A DNA stretch of 64,000 nt from Roseovarius amoyensis. Lineage in GTDB: Bacteria; Pseudomonadota; Alphaproteobacteria; Rhodobacterales; Rhodobacteraceae. Shown here in pieces: positions 28,028-35,436 of this stretch. The notes under the pieces were generated by a model. It searched no databases. It was not told where the DNA came from and saw only the letters and a program-made list of their open reading frames with translations. Where the stretch lies: positions 310,001 through 374,000 of the forward strand of contig NZ_QITQ01000001.1 of the NCBI RefSeq assembly GCF_003260265.1, given 5' to 3'. The number at the start of each line of letters is the position of its first letter. Position 1 is the first letter of the stretch. A program made the translations under genes and the position numbers.

Positions 28028-28633
28028 ATGTTCTACAGACCAGAGGACGGCCACGGCCTGCCCCACAATCCGTTCAACGCCATTGTCACCCCCCGCCCCA
28101 TCGGCTGGATCGCCACGCGCGCCGCGGACGGGTCGGAAAACCTGGCGCCCTATTCCTTTTTCAACGCCGTGGCCTATGTGCCGCCGCAGGTCATGTTCGC
28201 CTCGACCTCGGCCAAGCCCGACCGCGACGGCACCAAGGACAGCGTCGCCAACATTCGCGACACCGGCGTGTTTTGCGTCAACATCGTGGAATACGCCATG
28301 CGCGATGCCATGAACCAGACCTCGGGCGCGTGGAACAGGGATGTCGACGAGTTCGATCTGGCCGGGATCGAGCGGGCCGAATGCGAAACCATCGCCTGTT
28401 CGCGCGTGGCCGGCGCACCGGCGTCGCTGGAATGCCGTCTGACACAGATCATCGAGTTGCCGGGAGAGGCCAATTTCACCGTCTTTGGCGAGGTCACTGG
28501 CATCCACCTGCGCGACAACTGCCTGAAGGACGGCATCTTTGACGTGCTGCGGTTCAACCCGCTGGCGCGGATGGGGTACCGCGATTACACCGTCGTGCGC
28601 GAGAAATTCTCGCTGGCCCGGCCCGGCGAATAG
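28028..28633 (+). CDS. Flavin reductase-like FMN-binding protein
   Basis: The protein has 201 aa and belongs to the flavin reductase (FMN-binding split barrel) family. Characteristic parts are IVTPRPIGWIATRAADGSEN, APYSFFNAVAYVPPQVMFAS, KDSVANIRDTGVFCVNIV and the C-terminal FNPLARMGYRDY. GGAG seven bases upstream favours the ATG at 28028 over one at 28013. The short-chain members of this subgroup bind FMN and reduce it for a partner oxygenase or act independently. No oxygenase is adjacent. The physiological substrate is unknown. Confidence 0.88.
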   Translation: MFYRPEDGHGLPHNPFNAIVTPRPIGWIATRAADGSENLAPYSFFNAVAYVPPQVMFASTSAKPDRDGTKDSVANIRDTGVFCVNIVEYAMRDAMNQTSGAWNRDVDEFDLAGIERAECETIACSRVAGAPASLECRLTQIIELPGEANFTVFGEVTGIHLRDNCLKDGIFDVLRFNPLARMGYRDYTVVREKFSLARPGE

Positions 28634-28639
28634 CGCCGC

Positions 28640-29671
28640 TCAGGCTGGCCCGGCAAACCCGCTGCCTCCCGGCTTGGGGTCGTGGAACACGCATCGCCCC
28701 CGCCCCGCCGCCTTGGCCGCGTATAGCGCGGTATCGGCGCCCCGCATCATCCGGGTGACGTCGACAGGGTCGTAGTCGGTGCTGAGGCAAGCGCCGATAC
28801 TGGCCGACACCCGCAATTCGCGCCCGTCATGCATCACCGGCCGTTCGATCGAATCGATCAGCCGCCTTGCCAGGCGCGAGATTTCTTCGCGCCCTCCGGC
28901 GCGGGGCAGCACCAGCAAAAACTCGTCACCGCCGACGCGGATCTGGGTGTCGCGCTCGCGGGTGCCCTCGGTCAGCCGTTCGGCCACGGCCTGCAGCACC
29001 CGGTCGCCGGCAGCGTGGCCAAAGCCGTCATTCACCGCCTTGAACCAGTCGAGATCGAGATGCAGCAGCGCAAAGGACCGGCCCGACCGGACAGCATCGT
29101 CCAGCACCGGTTCCAGCGCGCGCCGGTTCCTCAGCCCGGTCAGCTTGTCGGTATAGGCCGCCTGCTCGGCCTGGGCGCGCGCGCCGTCCAGCCGCAGGTT
29201 CAGCCGGCGCAATTCATCCATGGCGGTCGACTTCGCCTCGACCAGGTAGAGCAGTTCGACCGCCAGGTCGGTGGCGGCAAAGTCGGTGCCGGTCAGCGCG
29301 TATTCGCGCACTGCATCGACAATGGAAATGCCGAACGAGAGGTTCAGCACCGCACCGCCGGGCAGGCCAAATTCATCCCCCAAAGGCACCAGAACGCCCT
29401 TCAGCTCGGTTCGGGGCCGGTCGCGCAAGGCAAAATGCAGCTTTTGCCGCGCCAATGCCAGCAGCCCGGCCATGTGGCCCTCGGCGCGCGGGCGGCGCAG
29501 TTCCATCACCTCCAACAGCCGCCGGCCGTTCAACTGGCGGTCAGGCCTGAGCTTGCACAAGGCCGGGCCGGCATGCCGGATATGCCCGGTGGCGTCGATC
29601 AGCGCGTGCATCGGGCATAGCGTGTCAAGCATCTGCGCCAACGCAGCCGGGTCAGAGCGTCCGGCACTCAT
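28640..29671 (-). CDS. Diguanylate cyclase with HNOBA-like N-terminal domain
   Basis: Synthesises cyclic di-GMP; 343 aa. Residues 10-145 resemble the H-NOX-associated (HNOBA, PAS-like) domain, followed by a coiled coil (about 145-172) and the GGDEF domain. The active-site GGDEF is intact at 247-251, and an RxxD inhibitory site is present at 238-241, so product feedback is expected. DLDWFKAVNDGFGHAAGD is typical of active cyclases. The gene is translationally coupled (ATGA) to the upstream H-NOX-like gene, so the H-NOX protein should be its regulatory partner. Confidence 0.93.
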   Translation of the reverse strand: MSAGRSDPAALAQMLDTLCPMHALIDATGHIRHAGPALCKLRPDRQLNGRRLLEVMELRRPRAEGHMAGLLALARQKLHFALRDRPRTELKGVLVPLGDEFGLPGGAVLNLSFGISIVDAVREYALTGTDFAATDLAVELLYLVEAKSTAMDELRRLNLRLDGARAQAEQAAYTDKLTGLRNRRALEPVLDDAVRSGRSFALLHLDLDWFKAVNDGFGHAAGDRVLQAVAERLTEGTRERDTQIRVGGDEFLLVLPRAGGREEISRLARRLIDSIERPVMHDGRELRVSASIGACLSTDYDPVDVTRMMRGADTALYAAKAAGRGRCVFHDPKPGGSGFAGPA

Positions 29672-30264
29672 TGCGCACCTGCCGCCAGCTCGAAATTTCG
29701 GCCCTCGGCAAAGGCGGTTTCCAGCAGGGTTATCGCAATGATCTCTTCGTTACCCTTCGCGCCCTTGTGTTCCAGCACGACCAGCGCGCCGTAATCATCG
29801 GCCATCGCGCGCAAAAGTCCCAGCATCACATGACCATACCGGTTGCGCAGGCCGTCAGTGGCGCCCACCGCGAGGCTGAAACGATGCGCCGCGTGTTCAT
29901 GCAATTCCAGCTGCGGCAGCAAAAGGTCGGGCACGGCCAGCCGCACCCGCGCCGGCAGGTCATCCAGCGAGTACAGGAAATCAACGAAATCGGTACCGCT
30001 GAAGCGCAACAGCCGCCTGACCGCCGTCGATGCCCGCGCCGACACCAGGAAGGTGCCGATATCCTCCAGCACCTCGTCTTGCCCCTTGCCCAGCGTCTGG
30101 AAAAGCGCGTCGAGCACCCTTTCGGTGATGGCACCGTCATAGACCTGCATCGCATCAAACGCGCAGGAGCCAAGCCCGGCGCGGCGGCAGACATCTTTCC
30201 AAAATCCCTCGTCATAGGTTTCGCACGCAAACCTTTCGATGGCCTGATTGACCAGCCCGTGCAT
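29668..30264 (-). CDS. H-NOX-like protein lacking the heme-ligand histidine
   Basis: The 198-aa protein has the heme NO/O2-binding (H-NOX) fold signature at its N-terminus (MHGLVNQAIERFACETYDEGFW) and the central GxFLV/LLRFSGTDFVDFLYSLDDL segment. In functional H-NOX proteins this segment is followed by the proximal heme histidine (LDxLH). Here residue 104 is proline (LDDLPARV). The downstream Tyr-x-Ser-x-Arg heme-propionate motif is also not recognisable in RFSLAVGATDGLRNRYG. Canonical heme binding therefore looks impossible. It is coupled to the diguanylate cyclase and probably still acts as its protein-protein regulator. The domain call is by pattern, not by profile search. Confidence 0.85.
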   Translation of the reverse strand: MHGLVNQAIERFACETYDEGFWKDVCRRAGLGSCAFDAMQVYDGAITERVLDALFQTLGKGQDEVLEDIGTFLVSARASTAVRRLLRFSGTDFVDFLYSLDDLPARVRLAVPDLLLPQLELHEHAAHRFSLAVGATDGLRNRYGHVMLGLLRAMADDYGALVVLEHKGAKGNEEIIAITLLETAFAEGRNFELAAGAQ

Positions 30265-30394
30265 GATACGCCTCCACGCCCCCGGCGCAAATGTCGCAGC
30301 GCGGGCTTAAGAAAGGCTCAATAATTGCAATTGTCGGCATTGCGCGCAAAGGGCGCATGCGCGCCGCCCCGGCGCGGGGGCTGGCGGGACCGGC

Positions 30395-31957
30395 TCAGAA
30401 ATCGGTCGGTGCGCCACCCTCGGCCTTGCGGCGTTCGACGAAGGCGGCAAGTTCCTCGTGTATGCCCTCGTCCATCGGCGGCGGCTCGAACCCCGCCACG
30501 ATATCGCGCCAGACATGGTGGGCGCGCTCGGCCGTCCACTGGGCGCCTGCGGCCTCCCACGCCTCGTAGTTGCGCCAGTCACTCAGGAACGGCTGGTAGA
30601 ACGCGGTGGTATAGCGGTCCTGGGTGTGCTGGATGCCAAAGAAATGCCCCTCGTCGCCGACCTCGCGCACCGCCTCGGTGGCGATCTCGTCGGGGCCGGC
30701 GGCCCAGATCATCGGGTCCATGTAGCGCTGGATCTGTTGCAGCACCTCGCAATCCATGACGAATTTCTCGGGGCTGGCGATCAGCCCACCCTCCAGCCAG
30801 CCGGCGGCGTGATAGACCATGTGCGCGCCCGCCTGCACCGCCGACCACAGGCTGTTGGAGGTTTCCCACATCGCCTGTGCGTCGGGCACGTTGGCCGCGC
30901 AGACACCCGAGGCGCGCAGCGGCAGCTTGTAAAGGCGGGCAAGCTGGCCCGTCATCTGGGTGGCGCGCATGTATTCGGGCGTGCCGAATGCCGGCGCCCC
31001 TGATTTCATATCGACGTTCGAGGTGAATGTGCCGATGGCACAGGGCGCGCCGGGGCGGACCACCTGCGCCAGCACCACCGCGCTCAGCGCCTCGGCCAGG
31101 CTTTGGGCCACCGCGCCGGCCATCGTCACCGGCGCCATGGCACCGGCCAGCGTGAACGGCGTCACCACCAGCCCCTGCCCCCGCCGCGCCAGCCGCATCC
31201 AGCCGTCCAGCATCGGATAGTCGTGCTTGAGCGGCGAGGTCGAGTTGATGTTGGTGAACATGTGCGGGCGGGCCTCGAACGCCTCGTGCGTCAACCCGGC
31301 ACTGATGCGCACCATTTCCATCACGTCCTCGACCCGTTCGGCGCCCAGCGCATAGGCATGGGCGACCTTGTCGGTCAGCGTCAGCTTGTCATAAAGCACG
31401 TCCAGGTGCCGCACCGAGGGGTGGATGTCCTGCGGTTCGACCGGATAGCCGCCGACGAAATGGATGCAGTTGAAATACTGGCTGAGCTTCAGCAGGGTGC
31501 GGCACATCTCGCGGTTGCCGGTAACCTTGCGCCCCAATTCCATGTCCCAGTATCCGGGGGGCGACGAGACGTTGCCGAAATTCAAGTGCCGCCCACCCAT
31601 GGTGATCTGGCGGTCGGGGTTGCGTGGCGTGATAGCCCAGCTTTCGGGCGCGTGGGCGATCATCTCCATCATGAAATCGCGGCCCATGCGCACCCGCTCG
31701 CCGTCGATGTCGCAGCCGCCGGTGGCCTTGAGTATCTCGACCGCCTCGGGGTTCAGAAAGGTGATGCCGATCTCTTCGAGGATGCGCATCGCACCATCGT
31801 GGATCGCGGCAACACCTTCGGCGCTCAGCGGTTCGACCGGGGGGTCGATGTTGATCGGCGGGTTCCAAGGCATCTGCTCGATCGCCGCGGTGCCGCGCCG
31901 GGCGGCATTTCCCGCACGGCCGCCGCTGCGCCGTCTGCGTTTGGCTTCGTCTGCCAT
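30395..31957 (-). CDS. Trimethylamine methyltransferase family protein (MttB superfamily, non-pyrrolysine)
   Basis: The protein has 520 aa. It matches the MttB/MtgB barrel family (ILEEIGITFLNPEAVEILKA, SPPGYWDMELGRKVTGN, EMVRISAGLTHEAFEARPHM, HMVYHAAGWLEGGLIASPEK). Relatives demethylate quaternary amines such as glycine betaine to a corrinoid protein. There is no in-frame TAG in the gene, so it does not encode pyrrolysine. No corrinoid protein (MttC-like) or activase lies nearby, so the acceptor is unknown. The ATG at 31957 has GGAG six bases upstream, which favours it over 31972. The N-terminus is Arg-rich. Confidence 0.88.
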   Translation of the reverse strand: MADEAKRRRRSGGRAGNAARRGTAAIEQMPWNPPINIDPPVEPLSAEGVAAIHDGAMRILEEIGITFLNPEAVEILKATGGCDIDGERVRMGRDFMMEMIAHAPESWAITPRNPDRQITMGGRHLNFGNVSSPPGYWDMELGRKVTGNREMCRTLLKLSQYFNCIHFVGGYPVEPQDIHPSVRHLDVLYDKLTLTDKVAHAYALGAERVEDVMEMVRISAGLTHEAFEARPHMFTNINSTSPLKHDYPMLDGWMRLARRGQGLVVTPFTLAGAMAPVTMAGAVAQSLAEALSAVVLAQVVRPGAPCAIGTFTSNVDMKSGAPAFGTPEYMRATQMTGQLARLYKLPLRASGVCAANVPDAQAMWETSNSLWSAVQAGAHMVYHAAGWLEGGLIASPEKFVMDCEVLQQIQRYMDPMIWAAGPDEIATEAVREVGDEGHFFGIQHTQDRYTTAFYQPFLSDWRNYEAWEAAGAQWTAERAHHVWRDIVAGFEPPPMDEGIHEELAAFVERRKAEGGAPTDF

Positions 31958-32045
31958 CGGTATCTCCGTCATGCGCTGGATGCCATGCAAGCACTCTGCG
32001 CGGGACGGGGTATGCCGGTTTGCGACGCCTGCTGTCGCTAAGGGA

Positions 32046-33950: not shown

Positions 33951-34038
33951 TAGAGTTAATTCCCGGAAAGGTTTTCTTAACCTCTGACAGGGATAGTCGA
34001 TGCACCGACAAGAGCAAGTCCGAAGGACCGTTTTCCCG

Positions 34039-35436
34039 ATGACCGGAAAGATACTCATCGTCGACGCGCTCGCCACCAACCGGATCGTGCTGAAGGCACG
34101 GCTTACTGCAGCATTTTACGAAGTTCTGCAGGCCGGATCCGGGGCCGAGGCGGCGACCGTGGCGCGCGACGCCCGGCCCGACCTGCTGTTGCTGGGCGGG
34201 GCCCTGCCGGACATAGGGGTCGGGGAACTGGTCACAGCGCTGGCCGAGGGGTGCGGCCCCGATTGCGTGCTGCCCACGGTGGTGGCGCTGTTGCCGGACG
34301 ACGCCGCCGCGCAGCGTGCCGACGCGCTGGCCGGCGGCGCCAGCGATGTCATTTCCAGGCCGGTCGATCACCGGTACCTGCTGGCGCGGTTGCGGGCGCT
34401 GTTGCGTCAGCGTCACCTCGACGCCGACCTCGGCGTGCCGGCGGCAACCGCCGATGCGCTGGGTTTCGCCGAAGAGCCCTGCGCGTTCCGCCCTCCGGCG
34501 CGACTGACAGTTATGGCCGGCACCGCGGCACGCGCGCATACCCTGCGCCAGCGCCTGGCGCCGGCGCTGCCGGACGTCACCTGCACCTTTGCCGAGGACG
34601 GCACCAGGGCCATGGCCGCGCTGCGCCGGGGCACCGACGCCGTTTTGCTGGAGGTGGGGGAAACCAACCTCGATACCGCGCCCGCCCTTCTGGCCGAGTT
34701 GCAGACGGCACCCGCAACCCGCCATGCCCGAATCGTCGTCCTGCTCGACCGCGCCGCTGCCGACCTGGCGGTGCCGCTGCTGGACATGGGCGCCAGCGAG
34801 GTTCTGCCGACGCCCGTCGACGACCGCGAGCTGACGCTGCGGATCTCCGCCCAGATCGCGCACAAGACGCGGGCCGACGTCCTGCGCGGCCGGCTGGAAA
34901 GCGGGTTGCAGGCGGCCGTCATCGACCCGCTGACCGGGCTATACAACCGTCGTTACGGGCTGAGCTTTCTGCGTCGCATCCTGGCCCAGCCACAAGGGGG
35001 CGGCGGCCTGTGCGCGGTAATGGTTGCCGATCTCGACCATTTCAAGGCGATCAATGACGGCTTCGGCCATGCCGCCGGCGACAGGGTGCTGGCGCAGGTC
35101 TCGGCGCGGATGCGGGCCAATCTGCCCGCCGGGGCGATAATCGCGCGGCTGGGGGGTGAGGAATTCGTGATCGTCGTTCCCGACACCTCGCCGGATGCGG
35201 CGCGCAGGCTGGCCGGCACGATCTGCCGCCATGTCCGCGAAAAGCCCGTGACGATGCCGGGCGGGGCGGGGGCTGTGGCGGTCACGGTCAGCATCGGGGT
35301 GACGCTGGCCCTGCCCGACCCCGCCGCTGGCCCGGCCCAGGCCGAAGCCCTGCTGGCCGAGGCCGACCGCGCGCTTTACGCGTCGAAATCCGGCGGGCGC
35401 AACACCGTTACTTTTCGCTGCCGTCCCGCGGCCTGA
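34039..35436 (+). CDS. pleD: PleD-like diguanylate cyclase with two degenerate receiver domains
   Basis: The protein has 465 aa arranged REC-REC-GGDEF as in Caulobacter PleD. The catalytic GGEEF is at 372-376, with DLDHFKAINDGFGHAAGD upstream, so c-di-GMP synthesis is expected. The first receiver keeps the shape (KILIVDALATNRIVLKARL) but has Ala10 for the second acidic residue, Gly53 (LLLLGGALPD) in place of the phospho-acceptor Asp, and Arg for the conserved Lys (SRPVD). The second receiver is degenerate, as in PleD. The inhibitory RxxD before GGEEF is also missing (PAGA). Phosphorylation and product inhibition therefore seem lost. Confidence 0.93.
   Translation: MTGKILIVDALATNRIVLKARLTAAFYEVLQAGSGAEAATVARDARPDLLLLGGALPDIGVGELVTALAEGCGPDCVLPTVVALLPDDAAAQRADALAGGASDVISRPVDHRYLLARLRALLRQRHLDADLGVPAATADALGFAEEPCAFRPPARLTVMAGTAARAHTLRQRLAPALPDVTCTFAEDGTRAMAALRRGTDAVLLEVGETNLDTAPALLAELQTAPATRHARIVVLLDRAAADLAVPLLDMGASEVLPTPVDDRELTLRISAQIAHKTRADVLRGRLESGLQAAVIDPLTGLYNRRYGLSFLRRILAQPQGGGGLCAVMVADLDHFKAINDGFGHAAGDRVLAQVSARMRANLPAGAIIARLGGEEFVIVVPDTSPDAARRLAGTICRHVREKPVTMPGGAGAVAVTVSIGVTLALPDPAAGPAQAEALLAEADRALYASKSGGRNTVTFRCRPAA

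Follow-up and report, generated by a model that had tools for sequence, protein, structure and literature searches.

The H-NOX protein encoded in the window (the whole stretch of 64,000 nucleotides of Roseovarius amoyensis DNA analysed here) carries a proline, Pro104, at the place of the proximal histidine that ligates heme. We found that this loss of the ligand is frequent among its relatives, that the coupling of the hnox gene to a diguanylate cyclase gene and the active site of that cyclase are conserved, that selection on hnox is purifying, and that the predicted fold is that of H-NOX. Our preferred explanation, in which we have somewhat better than even confidence, is that the His-less H-NOX is a heme-independent subunit that restrains the cyclase through an HNOBA-like domain, and that its orthologue in Dinoroseobacter shibae is the H-NOX controlling Dgc1. 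The features concerned are collected in Table 1.

Table 1. Features of the hnox-cyclase locus (positions are those of the window)
Feature	Position	Strand	Basis
hnox, HNOB protein of Group 5 type, 198 aa	29668..30264	minus	ORF, Pfam, phmmer, AF2, Foldseek
CCG codon of Pro104, aligned on the proximal heme His	29953..29955	minus	phmmer alignment, codon reading
H-NOX residues 83-88 (RRLLRF); Arg83, Arg84 and Arg87 (nearly) invariant	30001..30018	minus	subfamily alignments
Partner diguanylate cyclase, 343 aa	28640..29671	minus	ORF, Pfam; AF2 (pLDDT 93.7, pTM 0.70)
N-terminal HNOBA-like domain of the cyclase, residues 1-113	29333..29671	minus	Pfam, partner scan
Long coiled-coil-like helix, residues 136-172, from the N-terminal domain to GGDEF	29156..29266	minus	AF2 model
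GGDEF active-site motif, residues 247-251	28919..28933	minus	identical in all 58 sequences of alignment A3
RxxD inhibitory site (I-site), residues 238-241	28949..28960	minus	sequence, partner alignment

The H-NOX protein and its heme motifs

A preliminary description of this DNA had placed an H-NOX-like open reading frame here without stating the strand, and our searches agreed with it. The protein matched the Pfam family HNOB (PF07700) at 79.9 bits (cut-off 25.5) over profile positions 1-162 of 163, and a profile search of the source genome gave no second HNOB match; the NCBIfam profiles gave no match to this protein. Against Nostoc Alr2278, phmmer returned an E value of 2.5e-14; query residue 35 is followed by a gap of one residue, and the alignment then runs without gaps past the heme motif. 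In this gap-free part, LDDLPARV was aligned on LDNLHARV of Nostoc. Thus, Pro104 stands where heme-binding, NO-sensing H-NOX proteins have their heme-ligating histidine, as had been proposed.

The YxSxR motif had been called unrecognisable, and its columns in the family alignment indeed hold V133, A135 and D137. However, the absence of this motif is not diagnostic as had been supposed, because none of the 15 His-bearing subfamily members among the matches listed has all three residues together, the probable D. shibae NO sensor included. YxSxR is broken in His-members too, and it is therefore a trait of the subfamily and not a sign of lost heme. Since the motif is uninformative, the argument rests on residue 104.

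The best AF2 model of the H-NOX protein, made from alignment A1 (the window protein and 78 of the 113 listed sequences), had a pLDDT of 90.3 and a pTM of 0.86. It showed an H-NOX fold, in line with the check that the preliminary description had recommended, and Pro104 lies inside helix 93-110. The PDB top matches in Foldseek were Nostoc H-NOX structures, the best being 4iae (E 5.7e-13, TM 0.78/0.84), and the structural alignment gave 26% identity to Nostoc H-NOX. The fold is thus shared with the canonical bacterial proteins (Nostoc Alr2278, Shewanella, Legionella Hnox1), which differ in that both the proximal His and YxSxR are present. In addition, sGC beta-1 was among the fold matches of both the H-NOX and the cyclase models. 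For the H-NOX model, the TM by query to human sGC beta-1 was 0.80-0.81 in the NO-activated states and 0.78 in the inactive state, whereas Manduca sGC gave 0.62 (active) and 0.69 (inactive). The two point opposite ways, and no conclusion on the conformation of the H-NOX was drawn from them.

H122, H124 and H127 had been named as other candidates for the proximal ligand. We ruled them out, because they are not conserved: among the 80 distinct Pro-members, 31% have H124 and 5% have H122, and H127 is outside the four commonest residues at its column. Meanwhile, other positions hardly vary. Arg83, Arg84 and Arg87 hold in the subfamily with either His or Pro at 104, and from the sequences they may form a core stretch or a stretch in contact with the partner. 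Gly70 and Gly149, which we take to be the hinge glycines of the H-NOX literature, are invariant across all residue-104 classes. Furthermore, the heme-pocket proline P117 occurs in 100% of the 80 distinct Pro-members, in which much of the proximal helix is conserved too.

Residue 104, the cyclase partner and selection across the family

Matches to PF07700 were found in 221 of 295 genomes of the same family (Rhodobacteraceae). We read the best-placed 150 matches, including that of the own genome, and the counts cover these. Among these matches listed, 28 were of the canonical type (27 recognised by the YxSxR pattern, and L113), whereas 122 belonged to the subfamily of the window protein. The 122 members come from 122 genomes and 121 genera, with those of the window included and L115, a broken gene, counted. 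Residue 104 was Pro in 86, His in 15 and another residue in 21 of them (R 5, A 4, Q 3, N 2, T 2, and E, D, K, S and G 1 each). The orthologues, which the preliminary description had advised to check, thus lack the His in 107 of the 122 cases listed. The His-less state is not the singular oddity that it had seemed, and the group has already been published (PMC8738867). As a separate observation, the H-NOX of L029, from the same family and canonical in type, has YxSxR and a Gln at the proximal His position.

A further 80 loci, picked because they resemble the window protein and hence biased towards Pro, were kept outside the 122. The residue-conservation table and the tree were based on 114 sequences, after copies identical to other loci had been removed. 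On the best tree, the His label changes between His and non-His at least 12 times, and 4 of these changes are forced by well-supported branches; this is a quick tree (114 members and 4 outgroup rows) with 63 of its 115 inner branches below support 80, and the direction of change is not readable from it. His104 was kept or regained in scattered lineages, and this is a point against our preferred explanation. In 289 genomes drawn from the class, matches of at least 50% identity were confined to Rhodobacteraceae. There were three weaker matches, at 29% (canonical, same family), 30% and 23% (other families); the first two read LDDMHDSI and LDSMHTRV, both with His.

The preliminary description had also reported that hnox is coupled to an intact cyclase with an I-site, and this held: the two genes overlap by 4 bases (29668-29671), GGDEF is intact and RxxD is present. 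To count this coupling among relatives, a GGDEF gene was taken as the partner if its start lay between 60 bases before and 400 bases after the end of hnox. Of the 194 distinct sequences (listed places and likeness-chosen loci), 189 had 1.1 kb or more of downstream DNA, and a GGDEF partner adjoins hnox in 188 of these 189; the sole exception is L113, with its canonical-type H-NOX. The GGDEF motif was present in 188/188 partners, RxxD in 186/188 and the same 4-base overlap in 142/188. A sigma-70 scan found no promoter-like site in 28500-30600, and five terminator-like sites were observed there against 1.9 expected.

The HNOBA profile of Pfam matched the window cyclase at 21.3 bits, slightly below the cut-off of 23.4, and it matched 55 of the 58 partner cyclases scanned at E<=0.01. 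A sequence search of PDB chains found no relative of the N-terminal part of the cyclase (best E 0.018, an unrelated methyltransferase). The AF2 model of the cyclase was made from the window cyclase and sequences of 57 of 111 candidate loci (alignment A3). Its match to human sGC beta-1 (8hbf_B; rank 12, E 4.7e-16, 314 columns, rmsd 13.7 A, TM 0.34 by query) is weak, and PAS-GGDEF-EAL and other GGDEF proteins outrank it.

Selection was estimated from pairs of relatives. In the comparison of the window with L032, its nearest relative, YN00 gave a dN/dS of 0.13 (hnox) and 0.12 (cyclase), and NG86 gave about 0.21 for both genes. Among 14 close Pro-Pro pairs, which partly share members and are not all independent, the values were 0.03-0.17 (NG86). 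The selection on hnox is purifying. Because dN/dS is low both against L032 and in the Pro-Pro pairs, hnox is not decaying.

Two neighbouring genes may be mentioned here. An MTTB-family (trimethylamine methyltransferase) gene lies directly upstream of hnox on the same strand (window 30395-31990, minus). An MTTB gene upstream of hnox in the same orientation was seen in 58 of the 76 loci with sufficient upstream sequence, a biased count drawn from the 80 loci selected for likeness to the window protein. A figure legend of PMC8738867 also has MTTB among the neighbour families, with the group unspecified. About 4 kb from the H-NOX/cyclase pair, there is a second diguanylate cyclase (window 34000-35436, plus strand) with a receiver (two stretches) and GGDEF, and it is PleD-like. 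P. denitrificans has been described with one H-NOX-linked and one receiver-linked GGDEF protein (PMC5588039).

Published relatives

Kumar and Spiro described the H-NOX proteins of P. denitrificans and R. sphaeroides as lacking the axial His (PMC5588039). A review of 2022 then defined an H-NOX 'Group 5' from the P. denitrificans sequence Pden_3719, in which fewer than 10% of proteins have the proximal His, most have Pro and no Cys is conserved (PMC8738867). The window protein shares HNOB and Pro at the His position with this group, and we found no difference between the two. The share of His among the matches listed (15/122) is near that of the review, though the sample is another one. Furthermore, no Cys is conserved in the subfamily; the top Cys columns reach 58%, Cys133 being present in 58% of the members with other residues at 104 and in 56% of the Pro-members. 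The GGDEF partner is also as in P. denitrificans, the source of Group 5. Thus, the window protein fits Group 5, as judged by its features and not by the published network, and it is of a kind already described. How Group 5 proteins sense anything is a question posed by the review itself (PMC8738867), and we found no spectra or other biochemistry of any His-less member in the literature searched.

The P. denitrificans pair HnoX/DgcA (Pden_3719/3720) resembles the window pair in its overlapping genes, its His-less H-NOX and its cyclase, whose N-terminal domain was then called unknown (it is HNOBA-like in the relatives scanned here). It differs in species and in that an NO effect via H-NOX has been proposed. 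According to PMC5588039, the hnoX mutant was partly deficient in attached growth, without BapA, and consumed NO faster, while the dgcAB mutant overproduced biofilm. Kumar and Spiro suggested that DgcA is inhibited by H-NOX under NO. They also reported that NO stimulates biofilm even in hnoX and dgc mutants, that is, by an independent route (PMC5588039). These phenotypes fit a His-less protein that still restrains its cyclase, and an NO response is compatible with them as well. The authors' proposal that NO acts through H-NOX, together with the faster NO use of the hnoX mutant, counts against our preferred explanation.

In D. shibae, the His is probably kept. The genome of L188, which we take to be D. 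shibae DFL12, has an H-NOX that reads LDDLHDRA, with Cys, Trp and Arg in the YxSxR columns. Its neighbours are a HAD phosphatase, MTTB, hnox and dgc, as at the window locus, with a membrane-protein gene between MTTB and hnox. The D. shibae H-NOX/Dgc1 pair (Dshi_2815 and its neighbour) thus shares the locus order and the two-protein design of the window pair, but it differs in His104 and in its response: citing papers describe this H-NOX as an NO sensor that inhibits Dgc1 on NO binding (PMC7232146, PMC8846402). The shared locus and this inhibition count in favour of our preferred explanation.

Possible mode of action and its meaning

According to our preferred explanation, the protein has lost its axial heme His but retained its fold, its partner gene and probably also its contact with the cyclase. 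The H-NOX would dock on its co-translated cyclase, at the HNOBA-like domain, and in this state would lower c-di-GMP synthesis without an Fe-His switch. The His-less protein would then have neither heme nor dependence on NO, and its part may be akin to that of the heme-less H-NOX of the sGC alpha subunit. The alpha subunit of sGC has an H-NOX without heme, and sGC beta-1 has its parts in the order H-NOX, H-NOXA/PAS, coiled coil and cyclase. The window pair repeats this order split over two genes. However, the pair is encoded by two genes, has a GGDEF domain where sGC has a class III cyclase domain, and lacks the axial His; the models lend weak structural support to the sGC-like order, which counts against the explanation.

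NO itself is probably not missing from the host. The source genome has strong cytochrome cd1 (nirS-type) and related matches (G000 contig C33, 138261-146647), and therefore NO is probably made by the host and probably a relevant signal for it, so that an absence of NO is probably not the reason for the loss of His. The likely relevance of NO counts against our preferred explanation. We also considered denitrification as a reason for keeping the His. A nirK or nirS-type match (nirK over the cut-off, or a strong PF02239 match, which nirF and nirN can also give) was present in 9 of the 15 genomes with His and in 36 of the other 107 among the matches listed; with a Fisher p of 0.083 and too few independent pairs, this idea is not supported.

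Conservation of P117 and the proximal helix would be unsurprising if heme were still bound, and this counts against the heme-independent explanation. Heme might be held loosely, or NO might be sensed via another axial ligand (His2, another His, Met or water), so that the Pro protein mimics the state after breakage of the Fe-His bond. We regard this as rather unlikely, although P117 and the pocket helices are conserved and 2kil, titled as the Fe(II)CO state of the Shewanella H-NOX H103G mutant, is among the fold matches, so that heme can sit without a protein His. His2 is present in 93% of the 80 distinct Pro-members, but it is about as common in His-members (80%), and therefore there is no compensating gain. 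Nor is any His conserved in Pro-members alone (His145 is present in 60% of Pro-members vs 33% of His-members, and His76 in 80% vs 60%), and YxSxR is absent as well. Alternatively, some other small molecule may occupy the vacated pocket and give the pair a new signal to sense, which seems to us unlikely. The fold, Gly70 and Gly149 stay constrained, and residue 135, at the former propionate site, shifts in a way that would suit a pocket mouth reshaped along with the ligand: it is W, H, F or Y in 11/15 His-members and 9/86 Pro-members among the matches listed (Fisher p about 1e-6), small residues being mostly in Pro104 members. However, members with other residues at 104 are intermediate (12/21 listed), and the shift is inseparable from shared ancestry, with 4 independent pairs on supported branches that favour neither direction. 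No new invariant polar residue is specific to Pro-members either. The possible link between residues 104 and 135, strong by Fisher before relatedness is corrected for, was kept as a lead.

A redox switch via zinc-binding Cys, as in the H-NOX of V. cholerae and C. crescentus, is a mechanism that exists in other H-NOX proteins (PMC7108781, PMC12329717), and the window protein has Cys14, Cys26 and Cys34. Nevertheless, Cys14 is present in 18% of Pro-members, Cys26 and Cys34 are outside the four commonest residues, and the frequent Cys133 of Pro-members is Val here. The three conserved Cys and one His/Gln of the zinc-binding redox type were not found in the subfamily alignment, in agreement with the lack of conserved Cys in Group 5 (PMC8738867), and we consider such a switch very improbable. 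Finally, the gene might be a decaying relic of an NO sensor, given that both heme motifs are lost and that the His-bearing L115 is broken by a stop codon within hnox. This idea is hardly credible, being contradicted for the group by the conserved coupling and fold and by dN/dS values of 0.03-0.17 in the Pro-Pro pairs and 0.13-0.21 against L032.

The usual view of H-NOX proteins is that they sense NO through heme. A 2025 paper on a P. denitrificans hnox mutant introduces the protein in this way, and the word 'histidine' is absent from its main text. In the window protein, classical gas sensing has seemingly been lost and the regulatory job seemingly kept, a pattern that is already in print. A wider reading, which we put forward tentatively and hold to be less likely than not, is that, throughout the family, a whole H-NOX branch gave up NO sensing by heme iron and now either senses another signal without heme or acts as a constitutive brake on c-di-GMP synthesis. 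The axial His would then have been lost repeatedly, and perhaps regained, at a single orthologous locus, and the pocket mouth would have been reshaped at residue 135. Heme-free regulation by H-NOX is stated as an open question in PMC8738867. The occurrence of His-bearing and His-less orthologues at one locus, next to the same partner, offers a natural experiment on heme-free regulation of a cyclase by the H-NOX fold.
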